Positions 18,699 to 22,620 of a stretch of 64,000 bases of DNA are shown in pieces; the stretch's first letter is position 1, and every line of letters begins with the position of its first letter. This stretch comes from Desulfurobacteriaceae bacterium (lineage in GTDB: Bacteria; Aquificota; Aquificia; Desulfurobacteriales; Desulfurobacteriaceae), in contig JAMOTD010000009.1 of NCBI GenBank assembly GCA_027068415.1, forward strand, positions 62,001 to 126,000, given 5' to 3'. The notes under the pieces were generated by a model, which was given only the letters and a program-made list of their open reading frames with translations, made no database searches and had not been told where the DNA came from. The translations under genes were made by a program, and so were the position numbers.

Positions 18699-20732
18699 AT
18701 GAAATCAACTCCGCTTCTACTTTCCCTTCTGATTTTACCTGCTACGGCACCGGCAATGAACCTCTCCCTTGAGAGCTCCCTCTACAAGGTAAACCTGAAA
18801 GGAGACTACGCCAGAGAGACCGGCTACGAGCTCTGGAGGGGAAGAAAGAGCGGTTTTCTCTATAGGTTTCTTTTTGAGGAGGAGAGCCCGGTTAAGAGGG
18901 GTGCTTACTTTAAGCTATCAATAACCGGCGGAACAACCAAGGCACCCTACGTTAACCTGCTTACGGCCGACCCCGACAGGCTTTTCGCCTCAGGAGTAAA
19001 GAGTTTTACTGTCAGAGAGCTCTACTTCCACAAAGAGGGCTTCATCTTCAAGAACCTGAGCTTGACGGTAGGTAAACAGCCCTTCCAAATCGGGAACTTC
19101 CTAAACGACTACCTTTGGGGAGGGAAGTTTACCTACAGAACCGAAGGGGGAGTGAGAATTACGTGGAACCAGATTGCAGGGTACGAAGGTAAGTACCTCC
19201 TCTTCGGCGAAGAGGAGGAGGACGACGTAGACATCTTTAACCTGAAAGTTGAGAGGGGAGGAATTTCACTCGGTTTTTACTGGCTCTCTGACGCAAAGGG
19301 TAAAGAGCCGGCAGAGACTAAAAACGGGTTAACCCTCTCTCTCAAAGGGGAAAGGGGAAGGATAACGGCAACAACCCAGAACGGAGAACTCTCCTTCTAC
19401 GGAGAGCTCAAGGAAGGGGTTTTCACCCTCAGCGGCGGATATGCGGAAAGGGAATTTACCTCCTACGGCTTCAAGGAGGGGGTAAACGGAATCGGTCTAA
19501 TCTATAAACCCGCCTTCAGCAACTTGATGTTTTTAAAGAGTGAAGCGGAATTTCAAGCAGAAGGAGTTAACTGGAGGGTCTACGGCCTTCACGTTGAAAA
19601 GGCCTCAGGGAAACTTATCGGAAACGAGCTCGGAGTTGAGGGAGAAAAGCCTTTAGCAAAGGGATTTTCGCTCTTCGGGAAGGTTGCTCTCGGGAGCCGG
19701 GGCTCTTACGCACTCTTCGGCGGTTTAAGGTGGAGTCTTAAGAAAATTCCTGCAGGAGAAAAACTCCCTCAGGTGGAGGTTGAAAATTACTTAGCAATAA
19801 AAGGAGAGTACAGCGACTTCCCGAGGAGAGATTACAAAACCCAGAGCGAGTACGAAGGGTACGCCCTTGCAAAGCACTTGGGGTTCTGGCACACGACCTA
19901 CAAAGCGGCTTTAAAGGGGGAGGGCTTTAAAGTAAAGGTTTCAACAGGAAGGGATACGAAAGTTGACTACCTGATTTGGGGGAATACTGCAGACAACTTT
20001 AAGTACCAGAAGGGGCACGGGAAAGAGTGGCACTTTGAGGAGGCATGGGTAGGTAGAGAGGAGTTAAAGGTAGGGATGGTGGAGCTTTCCCTCAAAGGGT
20101 TTATAGATGAGAGCTTAACGGGAGTTAGAGGGAAGTGGAGAGAGGCAGAGCTCTACTGCCTCTTTGAAAGTGATAAAGAGAGGGCAAAGTACCTTACTCT
20201 TAAGTGGAGCAAAAAGGGTGTAGGGGCTTTCCTGCTGTACAGGAGGGGTGAGGGCTCAAACTCAACCCTCGGAGTTAACTATACCGAAGGAAGTATTGAG
20301 CTGGGAGGGCTGGTTCAGACAGAGGGAGGACGGGAGAGCTGGGGAGGTTTTGTTAAGTTAAAGGGGGAGCTCTTAAAGTGGAAGGGGAAAGCAGAGTACA
20401 GGCTCTACTCAAAGGAGTTTAAAACCTTCGGCCTAAAGGAATACTTCTGGAACGAGGGCTTCATCTACAGGCCCGGAGAGAGCAATTTAAGAGTACTGAA
20501 AGTTAGCGCCGGAAGGGGGCTAAGAACCGGCCTAAAGATGGTAGACAGGTTAAAACCCCAAGTTAACTTCTTCTACCTGAACCTCAGGAGGTTCTCAGGC
20601 AAATACGTCGGAGAAGAGGGAGGAGTTGCGCTCTCTTTAAAACCGGGTAGTAAGTGTAGCTTGGCCTTAATAGGTTCTATTGGTAATAATAACTCTTACT
20701 ATGAAGGGGTTGCCTTTAAGGTGAAGTGGTAG
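18699..20732 (+). CDS. Large outer-membrane beta-barrel protein (porin/export-type)
   Basis: 677 residues with a Sec signal peptide (Lys2, hydrophobic core, cleavage near APAMN) followed by alternating amphipathic strands rich in Tyr, Phe, Gly and Lys, ending in the aromatic FKVKW typical of proteins inserted by the Bam machinery. VGKQPFQIGNFLNDYLWGG resembles the strand-loop signature of alginate-export/OprD-like barrels. The transported substrate is unknown. TTTGGAGGT lies just before the ATG. A TAAAATTGG promoter-like element at 18654-18662 is 36 nt upstream of the start. The 63-nt gap separates it from a divergent operon. Confidence 0.75.
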   Translation: MKSTPLLLSLLILPATAPAMNLSLESSLYKVNLKGDYARETGYELWRGRKSGFLYRFLFEEESPVKRGAYFKLSITGGTTKAPYVNLLTADPDRLFASGVKSFTVRELYFHKEGFIFKNLSLTVGKQPFQIGNFLNDYLWGGKFTYRTEGGVRITWNQIAGYEGKYLLFGEEEEDDVDIFNLKVERGGISLGFYWLSDAKGKEPAETKNGLTLSLKGERGRITATTQNGELSFYGELKEGVFTLSGGYAEREFTSYGFKEGVNGIGLIYKPAFSNLMFLKSEAEFQAEGVNWRVYGLHVEKASGKLIGNELGVEGEKPLAKGFSLFGKVALGSRGSYALFGGLRWSLKKIPAGEKLPQVEVENYLAIKGEYSDFPRRDYKTQSEYEGYALAKHLGFWHTTYKAALKGEGFKVKVSTGRDTKVDYLIWGNTADNFKYQKGHGKEWHFEEAWVGREELKVGMVELSLKGFIDESLTGVRGKWREAELYCLFESDKERAKYLTLKWSKKGVGAFLLYRRGEGSNSTLGVNYTEGSIELGGLVQTEGGRESWGGFVKLKGELLKWKGKAEYRLYSKEFKTFGLKEYFWNEGFIYRPGESNLRVLKVSAGRGLRTGLKMVDRLKPQVNFFYLNLRRFSGKYVGEEGGVALSLKPGSKCSLALIGSIGNNNSYYEGVAFKVKW

Positions 20733-20739
20733 GTATAAT
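20710..20739 (+). promoter_or_regulatory. Sigma-70-type promoter for hisI inside the end of the barrel gene
   Basis: TTGCCT (20710-20715), an 18-nt spacer and a perfect TATAAT (20734-20739). The -35 box is in the last codons of the beta-barrel gene. Transcription would begin about 20 nt before hisI and uncouple histidine synthesis from porin expression. Confidence 0.55.
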
Positions 20740-20765
20740 TGGAGTTAAACTCAAAAGGAGCCCCT

Positions 20766-21113
20766 ATGCTGCAGGTCAAAGAAGAAAACCTGAAAGAAAT
20801 AGACTTTGAAAAGGGTGGAGGACTCGTTCCCGTAGTTGTTCAGGACGCCTCAACCAAAGAGGTCTTAATGGTAGCCTACGCAAACAGGGAGGCCCTTGAG
20901 AAAACCCTTAAAACCGGTTTCGCCCACTACTACTCCCGCTCAAGGAGAAAGCTCTGGAAAAAGGGCGAAATTTCGGGAAATACCCAGAAAGTAAAGAGAG
21001 TCCTCGTTGACTGCGACGGAGACACTCTCCTCTACATAGTTGAGCAGAAAGGGGTGGCCTGCCATACAGGAGAGTACTCCTGCTTTTTCAGAACCGTGGG
21101 GGAGGAGAAGTGA
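20766..21113 (+). CDS. hisI: Phosphoribosyl-AMP cyclohydrolase
   Basis: Third step of histidine synthesis, opening the adenine ring of phosphoribosyl-AMP. Seen: [45 protein letters not shown], and [12 protein letters not shown] with zinc-binding Cys residues. I start at ATG 20766 because AAGGAG lies 5 nt upstream (20755-20760). A TTG at 20739 falls in the promoter and has no ribosome binding site. The 115-residue monofunctional form is normal; HisE is encoded separately just downstream. Confidence 0.94.
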
Positions 21114-21403
21114 AGGGAGAAATTGGAGAGGTTTTAAATAACCTATACAGGATAATTGAAGAGAGGAAGAGGGAGCTCCCCGAAGGTTCCTACACGGCAG
21201 AGCTCTTTAAGAAGGGTCAGGATAGGATTCTTCAGAAGGTAGGCGAGGAGGCCATAGAGAGCATACTGGCTCTAAAGTCAAGAGAGAGGAAAGAAGCCGT
21301 CTACGAGGTTGCGGACCTCCTCTACCACCTACTGGTAGCCCTTGTAAACGAAGGAATTACCCTTGACGAGGTTGCAGAGGAACTAAAGAGAAGGATGAAG
21401 TAG
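21110..21403 (+). CDS. hisE: Phosphoribosyl-ATP pyrophosphohydrolase
   Basis: Second step of histidine synthesis; a 97-residue all-alpha MazG-like hydrolase. Seen: [34 protein letters not shown] with the Glu-rich metal site, and [15 protein letters not shown]. The GTG start overlaps the hisI stop (GTGA) and GGAGGAG lies just upstream. In many bacteria HisI and HisE are fused; here they are separate but translationally coupled. The PocR-type ORF begins 5 nt after its stop. Confidence 0.93.
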
Positions 21404-21408
21404 CGATT

Positions 21409-21738
21409 ATGGAGAAAGGAAGACTTGAGGACTTCTTCTCCCCCGAGGAGATTGGGGCCCTCCTGAGAAAGTATTCCCTTCCGGTAAACGCTTCGGCAAT
21501 GGTATGGAATGAATCGGGAAAGCTAGTTTACTACGACTTTATCACACCCTACTGCCGCGAAATCTACTCGGCCGCTCCCCAAAGGTGCGAGGAGGACAGG
21601 AAAAAGAGGTTTGAAAGGGCCCTAAAAGAAAAAAAGCCCTTCGTTCACAAGTGTTTTGCTCAAAAAATGAACTACGTAATTCCCCTAATAGTGAACACCA
21701 AACAGAGGGAGCTCTTCATCGGAATAGCCGGCGGCTGA
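21409..21738 (+). CDS. PocR-type sensor domain ORF, ending at TGA in frame with the GGDEF ORF
   Basis: As conventionally read, a 109-residue protein. It resembles the PocR ligand-sensing domain: a conserved Cys after Tyr (Cys49, in FITPYCREIY), a second Cys followed by acidic residues (Cys60), a third in KPFVHKCFAQ (Cys82), then hydrophobic strands VIPLIV and LFIGIAGG running straight into the TGA. PocR domains normally continue for a further 40-60 residues, so this ORF ends mid-domain. The next ORF is in the same frame with only Q-G between TGA and its ATG. The ATG here is 5 nt after the hisE stop. See the combined entry for the selenoprotein interpretation. Confidence 0.75.
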   Translation: MEKGRLEDFFSPEEIGALLRKYSLPVNASAMVWNESGKLVYYDFITPYCREIYSAAPQRCEEDRKKRFERALKEKKPFVHKCFAQKMNYVIPLIVNTKQRELFIGIAGG

Positions 21739-21769
21739 CAGGGAATGTACAGACTTTCCCGGCGGGAAA
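21736..21769 (+). promoter_or_regulatory. Candidate bacterial SECIS element (UGA plus hairpin)
   Basis: UGA at 21736-21738. TTTCCC (21755-21760) pairs perfectly with GGGAAA (21764-21769) around a GGC loop. The apical loop begins 22 nt after the UGA, and G is in its first two positions. This fits the published bacterial SECIS pattern as I recall it (loop of 3-14 nt, G in the first two loop bases, 16-37 nt from UGA). A competing pairing of GGGAA (21741-21745) with TTCCC (21756-21760) is also possible. The hairpin is entirely within coding sequence. Confidence 0.5.
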
Positions 21770-22620
21770 TTGAGAACATAAAGAGGCTCTCCAAAGAGCT
21801 AAACCTCAACTTTGACGAACTCCTCCTTCTGGCCGAAGAGGATCTGACCTTCGGCTGCCAAAGGGGATTTAACCCCAACCCGGTGGCGGTAAACAGGGAG
21901 AAACTCCTCCTCTTTCAGAGCTCCCTCTTCCTGAAAGCCTTTAAAAGACGCATTGAGCTAAAAAGAAGAAACGTTTCGTTAAAAACCCTTTTAATCCTTG
22001 ACAGAATAGAAGAGATTACCGGCGGCTGCTTTGAAGTGAAGGAAAAGCCGATAAATGACCGGGAAGTTAAAGCCCTCTTTGAGGCACTAAACGAGCTGGT
22101 AGAGTCGGTAAATTTGAGAATAAACTACGTAGTGCCGAGGAAGGTTAAGTACTTCGCATACAGAGACCCCCTTACAGACCTCTACAACCGCCACTACTTA
22201 AGGGAAGTAGTAAACAGGTTCTCGGGCGAGAGCAGGAACTTCCCGATAGGAGTAATCTTTATAGATATGGACAACCTTAAGGAGATAAATGATAACCTCG
22301 GCCACAAAACGGGAGACTTATACCTTAAAAGGTTAAGCGAGGTAATAAACGCCTCCGTAAGACACTCGGACTTCGTCTTCAGAATCGGAGGGGACGAGTT
22401 CCTCGTCTTGGTTCCCAAGTTAAAGGAGGGAGCGCTTGAGAAGATTGTCGGAAGAATAAAGAGAAACCTTGAAATTATAAACAGAAGCGAGAACCTGAAC
22501 CCTCCCCTTTCGGCCTCGGTGGGGGTGAGTATCTGGAAGAGCCCCGAAGAGCCCTTCCAGAGAGCCCTTGAATCTGCCGACTTCAGAATGTACAGGGAGA
22601 AGACTAACGGCAAACCATAG
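21745..22620 (+). CDS. GGDEF diguanylate cyclase ORF (probably the C-terminal part of a PocR-GGDEF protein)
   Basis: 291 residues if read from ATG 21745. The first 110 residues finish the PocR domain and form a helical linker. The GGDEF domain starts at DPLTDLYNRH (about 141), carries FIDMDNLKEINDNLGH and the intact catalytic motif RIGGDEF (about 213-219), and has an inhibitory-site RxxD (RHSD) exactly five residues before GGDEF, so it should be an active, product-inhibited cyclase making c-di-GMP. The ATG has CAGGGA directly abutting it and no ribosome binding site at normal distance, unlike most genes here, which suggests it is not an independent start. Its 3' end overlaps the convergent HIT gene by 17 nt. 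Confidence 0.85.
   Translation: MYRLSRREIENIKRLSKELNLNFDELLLLAEEDLTFGCQRGFNPNPVAVNREKLLLFQSSLFLKAFKRRIELKRRNVSLKTLLILDRIEEITGGCFEVKEKPINDREVKALFEALNELVESVNLRINYVVPRKVKYFAYRDPLTDLYNRHYLREVVNRFSGESRNFPIGVIFIDMDNLKEINDNLGHKTGDLYLKRLSEVINASVRHSDFVFRIGGDEFLVLVPKLKEGALEKIVGRIKRNLEIINRSENLNPPLSASVGVSIWKSPEEPFQRALESADFRMYREKTNGKP

Follow-up and report, generated by a model that had tools for sequence, protein, structure and literature searches.

A predicted selenocysteine codon and candidate SECIS hairpin in a PocR–GGDEF gene of Desulfurobacteriaceae

Bacterial SECIS elements include that of E. coli fdhF. Known selenoproteins are mostly redox enzymes or proteins of metal handling, and cysteine is the usual stand-in for selenocysteine (Sec). 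In the available part of a recent survey, the model of the bacterial SECIS element consists of rules on loop size, stem length, loop G, spacing and minimum free energy (MFE), the last set at −7.5 kcal/mol or below (PMC13188914). The 2026 table of 119 selenoprotein families in that part of the survey holds no PocR or GGDEF entry, its one GUxG entry is Hypothetical protein DG (NF049953), and the terms GGDEF, diguanylate, PocR and sensor are absent from the accompanying text (PMC13188914). A literature search by title and start of abstract, in which few subscription journals were covered, found no PocR or diguanylate cyclase selenoprotein. The element described here is therefore presented as a SECIS element of known kind, in a protein family not found described in the literature searched.

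We analysed 64,000 nucleotides of DNA from a Desulfurobacteriaceae bacterium (contig JAMOTD010000009.1, positions 62,001 to 126,000), referred to below as the window. A single frame on the + strand runs from ATG at 21409 to TAG at 22620, and its sole interruption is a TGA at 21736. The features of the locus are the following.

20739..21403, +: hisI and hisE, conserved neighbours directly upstream (5 nt before the gene), from synteny
21409..22620, +: PocR–GGDEF gene read through the UGA, 403 aa, Sec as residue 110, stop codon TAG
21430..21825, +: PocR sensory domain PF10114, residues 8–139, predicted PAS-like fold (E 5.5e-7)
21736..21738, +: in-frame UGA, predicted selenocysteine codon in the motif GGUQG, inside the PocR domain; from orthologue TGA and Cys forms
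21739..21754, +: 16-nt spacer between UGA and stem, gap-free in an 11-row alignment
21741..21745, +: GGGAA, alternative partner of 21756–21760 from folding, expected to lie within the ribosome at UGA decoding
21755..21760, +: TTTCCC, 5′ arm of the candidate SECIS element, from sequence and conserved pairing
21761..21763, +: apical loop GGC; in orthologues GTC, GGA or an opened 5-nt loop, CGTGT or CGTGA
21764..21769, +: GGGAAA, 3′ arm of the candidate SECIS element, from sequence and conserved pairing
22156..22614, +: GGDEF (diguanylate cyclase) domain PF00990, residues 250–402 (E 1e-36, 126.6 bits)

Because gene callers end genes of this kind at the UGA, they would report this PocR domain as two short genes.

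The initial annotation had proposed a stem starting at the 17th base after the UGA, with the loop 22 nt away and G at its first two positions, and the coordinates agree with this. It had also described the hairpin as passing through codons for Leu-Ser-Arg-Arg-Glu-Ile; the first five are covered, but the hairpin stops before Ile. Its suggestion that the geometry is that of a bacterial SECIS element holds for loop size and stem length (3 nt and 6 bp, against limits of 3–9 nt and 4–16 bp for the upper stem), for the loop G (GG in the window, where at least one G at positions 1 and 2 is expected) and for spacing (22 nt from UGA to loop, both in the window and across the ungapped alignment, and shorter by one nucleotide in orthologues with a five-base loop, within the range of 16–37 nt). 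The MFE rule is borderline, the hairpin alone giving −5.7 kcal/mol and the 41-nt stretch after the UGA −7.8 kcal/mol; the same stretch in the orthologues gave −5.9 to −11.8 kcal/mol. Two orthologues, L019 and L024, have hairpins of 5 bp with a 5-nt loop. The element thus resembles bacterial SECIS elements in its small apical loop with a G in the first two positions, its 6-bp upper stem, its distance from the UGA and its location within the coding region. It differs from them in having a stem of only 5–6 bp, a 3-nt loop, a weak free energy and no conserved lower stem.

A comparison is also available within the same genome. The selD gene (L094, G000:C31:2171–3097, minus strand) contains one TGA, in the motif VRASGUGAK, followed by the hairpin GAGCCC-GGTC-GGGCTC, and SelD is itself a predicted selenoprotein. 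Both genes have an in-frame TGA followed by a CCC-GG..-GGG hairpin. Unlike the element in the window, that of selD has a 4-nt loop, GGTC, lies 17 nt from the UGA and reaches −11.6 kcal/mol, compared with −5.7 kcal/mol here. A TGA with such a hairpin was present in selD of all four genus genomes searched.

The read-through protein matched PF10114 with 29.9 bits, above the cut-off of 23.9, and is in this respect a PocR-domain protein. In an alignment of 14 protein rows (A3, from which the g4 paralogue L031 and the Cys genes L028 and L029 are left out), G327, G328, D329, E330 and F331 together with R318 and D321 are invariant in 14 of 14 rows. The GGDEF signature is therefore intact, with RxxD upstream, as in a diguanylate cyclase. 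With PF10114 and PF00990 both above their cut-offs and a PAS-like predicted fold, the protein is like PocR/PAS-like sensors and GGDEF diguanylate cyclases; unlike the known PocR and GGDEF proteins, it has a predicted selenocysteine in the sensor domain and is absent from the 119-family table in the available part of the survey (PMC13188914). Its GGUQG motif is similar to the GUxG motif of Hypothetical protein DG, but the NF049953 model was not among the NCBIfam matches of the window protein (E up to 10).

In a single genome the hairpin is only mildly unusual, because about 2% of positions carry such geometry. Counting perfect 6-bp stems with loops of 3–9 nt, spacing of 16–37 nt and a G in the first two loop positions, hairpins were found after 2.2% of window positions on the + strand and 1.9% on the − strand. 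For TGAs regardless of frame, the counts were 24 of 1042 on one strand and 17 of 963 on the other. Folding energies (for 37 °C unless stated) were no better than those of shuffled sequences in five stretches (z 0.00 to −0.90), and single-genome folding was set aside as an uninformative test in favour of comparative analysis. The hairpin by itself has marginal stability at 75 °C, with −1.1 kcal/mol in the window and 0.0 kcal/mol in L019. No Rfam family matched the window at gathering thresholds.

The initial annotation had named dominance of an alternative pairing with 21741–21745 as evidence against the SECIS element. In folds that start at the UGA, 21741–21745 does pair predominantly with 21756–21760, and the SECIS core pairs have a mean probability of 0.22. 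This alternative disappears when the first 9 or 12 nt are omitted, which raises the mean probability of the core pairs to 0.97, and it is not general across the orthologues. While a UGA is being decoded, the nucleotides just after it are enclosed by the ribosome. In such folds the hairpin is likewise not favoured in L018, L019, L024 and L027 when the RNA begins at the UGA (0.00–0.35). The window hairpin alone is weak, and comparison across genomes decides the SECIS reading.

We searched 136 genomes of the phylum with the protein and obtained 11 matches of nearly full length, each containing a single internal TGA. All 11 belong to the window's own family, Desulfurobacteriaceae (22 genomes), they represent three genera, and the other ten proteins are 47–70% identical to that of the window. 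The TGA occupies the same alignment column in all 11, so the in-frame UGA is conserved. A search of the same 136 genomes with the PocR family matched 15 genomes, all from this family: 11 with one TGA and four, of genus g4, with none. The named records of the family are Thermovibrio, Desulfurobacterium and Desulfurobacteriaceae MAGs. A PocR scan of genome contigs gave seven loci among the matches listed, all Desulfurobacteriaceae, and no plasmid match was obtained by tblastn with the PocR domain of one orthologue. All 11 Sec genes, like the two Cys genes described below, sit between hisI–hisE and an opposing HIT gene. HisI and HisE are direct neighbours in 10 of 10 further Sec loci and in both Cys loci.

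The initial annotation had proposed comparing the stem across related genomes for compensatory changes, and had held that loss of the stem in orthologues keeping the TGA would count against it. The 11 Sec-gene sequences were aligned (A4). RNAalifold found this hairpin alone, with no conserved lower stem. Five of the stem pairs are kept in 11 of 11 sequences and the sixth in 9 of 11, so that 97.0% of the 66 stem cells are paired; the unpaired cells all belong to the top C-G pair, which is broken in L019 and L024 and leaves them with a five-base loop. Loss of the stem is thus clearly not what is seen, as 11 genomes keep it. Compensatory change was also found, as a switch between U-A and C-G at one pair: pair 21-33 of the alignment is C-G in seven rows and U-A in four. 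Pair 20-34 is U-A in nine rows and U-G in two, and both-sided change is confined to the one pair. The drawn tree requires two both-sided switches, and its well-supported branches force one. The switch exchanges CTT or TTT with GAA for CTC or TTC with GAG, and is a third-base, synonymous change on both sides. Among 500 shuffles, one reached the pairing score and one the covariation score; this control takes no account of relatedness. When the 3′ arm was slid along, pairing fell to 36–77%.

The strongest sign of selection on the RNA is codon choice in the stem. The stem Ser codon is TCC in 11 of 11 sequences, and is the sole fully codon-invariant column among 46 Leu, Ser and Arg columns (those in which at least 9 of 11 rows agree; codon counts exclude the g4 paralogue L031). 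The first stem Arg codon is CGG or CGT in all 11, and the second is CGG in eight of the nine rows that have Arg; elsewhere in these genes CGG makes up 6% and CGT 3% of Arg codons (n = 364). At the corresponding Ser-Arg codons two of three g4 paralogues have TCA AGA, and L033 has TCC CGG. The UGAC context is invariant in 11 of 11.

Two g7 genomes contain a syntenic gene with Cys at the Sec site, encoded by TGC in L028 and TGT in L029. Cys therefore replaces Sec in both of the two syntenic orthologues. The codons that follow differ, and the hairpin sequence is absent. In the loci of the four PocR–GGDEF genes of genus g4 (L030–L033) none of the hisIE and HIT neighbours is present, and we regard these genes as probable paralogues or transfers. 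In the three of these that were aligned, the Sec site is occupied by Ser (L030 and L032) or Ala (L033). The Ser codon of L030 and L032 is TCA, one base from TGA.

These comparisons bear on whether the locus might instead be two coupled genes, a 109-aa PocR protein that stops at the UGA and a GGDEF protein that restarts at ATG 21745. The window itself offers such a start, an ATG 6 nt past the UGA with an open frame of 291 aa. Among the 11 sequences, however, the restart codon is ATG in three and TTG in two, the remaining six having CTT, ATT or TTA; the PocR domain runs past the UGA (PF10114 to residue 139, with a strand at 101–113 spanning the site), and the Cys orthologues read straight through it. 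We consider two genes very improbable.

The genome encodes the proteins expected of a selenocysteine pathway. SelB was found on contig C9 (437.5 bits, cut-off 242.25) and SelA on contig C7 (622.8 bits), in addition to SelD. A tRNA-Sec scored above the Rfam cut-off in 20 of the 22 family genomes, the exceptions being the window's genome and G120. In the window's assembly no tRNA-Sec was found among the 150 and 120 of 157 first-look candidates that were scored; a DNA search with the tRNA-Sec of G134, run without a positive control, gave no match in this genome. ARAGORN likewise detected no tRNAs, whether in the window or in the region surrounding selB. In G134 and G135 the tRNA-Sec gene lies beside a Thr-Tyr-Met-Gly tRNA cluster, and in G134 it also adjoins a RadA-like gene (named from sequence). 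Contig C33 of the window's genome (L012) starts inside that cluster, just before tRNA-Gly. The tRNA-Sec/radA flank gave only a 149-base match elsewhere in the window's genome, and no RadA was found there above cut-off. On these grounds the tRNA-Sec block looks to be missing from the draft assembly, whose estimated completeness is 99.98%. According to the available part of a published report on Aquificales, tRNA-Sec occurs in both T. ammonificans and D. thermolithotrophum (PMC4227106). In G134 we noted a gene resembling formate dehydrogenase that carries one TGA (L108, G134:C1:295039–295806, minus strand); no TGA-bearing match of its family was among the matches listed for the window's genome.

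The missing tRNA-Sec, together with the UGAC context shared by all 11 genes, would suit a UGA that is read by another tRNA or by leaky termination, with a hairpin that merely stalls the ribosome. Set against this are the Cys found at the site in syntenic relatives, the presence of SelA, SelB and SelD, and the fit of the hairpin to the published SECIS model, and we give this explanation very little weight. Although a hairpin of this geometry follows about 2% of positions by chance, a nonsense mutation, sequencing error or decaying gene is barely credible when the same TGA is found in 11 genomes of three genera at the divergence given above, the GGDEF residues downstream are intact and codon choice in the stem is fixed.

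We thus predict with high confidence that the hairpin at 21755–21769 is a true bacterial SECIS element and that the gene encodes a selenoprotein. What can be read directly from the sequences is one gene, a conserved TGA and hairpin, a compensatory change, replacement by Cys, and SelA, SelB and SelD; from these we infer Sec insertion and SelB binding. In the predicted mechanism, the ribosome would halt at the UGA at 21736, and the hairpin, lying just beyond the mRNA channel, would be bound by SelB with its Sec-tRNA; selenocysteine would then enter as residue 110 to give the full-length PocR–GGDEF protein. If so, hairpins of 5–6 bp show how small the SECIS element of a thermophile may be.

The PocR domain model has a mean pLDDT of 94.2 and places residue 110 in the last strand (101–113). 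VIA-align matched the PocR model best with PAS-like chains (Z 8.5 to 4ew7 and 7.3 to the SrrB heme PAS domain), although Z near 8 may reflect a common arrangement. The PAS-like reading rests on VIA-align, Foldseek with the PocR model having given no match at E ≤ 0.001. A PDB sequence search with the PocR alignment returned no sensible relative, the best rows being designed repeat proteins, and most matches to the whole model in VIA-align were GGDEF structures. Because Sec110 lies in the last strand of a PAS-like PocR domain, selenium would most likely act in signal sensing, as a redox switch or as a ligand for a metal or small molecule, perhaps with Cys82. The sensed signal would then set synthesis of c-di-GMP through the GGDEF domain.

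All 14 rows of A3 share Cys49, Cys60 and Cys82. A redox pair of Sec110 and Cys82, or a metal site, are guesses from the model. The two Cys orthologues lack the PocR stretch that carries Cys49 and Cys60 and keep Cys82; because of this a fixed four-ligand site is disfavoured and any guess at the active site is unsure. We give about an even chance to the reading that this is a new selenoprotein family whose Sec residue does the sensing in a diguanylate cyclase of PocR type. Selenium chemistry would in that case directly control c-di-GMP signalling in deep-branching anaerobic thermophiles, whether through redox state, through a metal, or through selenium supply itself acting via UGA read-through. 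Such a protein would bring selenocysteine into a sensory domain of second-messenger signalling. The occurrence of syntenic Sec and Cys forms within one family allows a direct test of what selenium adds to the sensor. The family is also a candidate addition to the catalogue checked, as far as the available part of that survey extends (PMC13188914).

Upstream of hisI, the window encodes a 677-aa protein (18699–20732) with a signal-peptide-like start; an outer-membrane barrel is our guess from its sequence. A fragment match to this protein was seen in 6 of the 10 other Sec loci.
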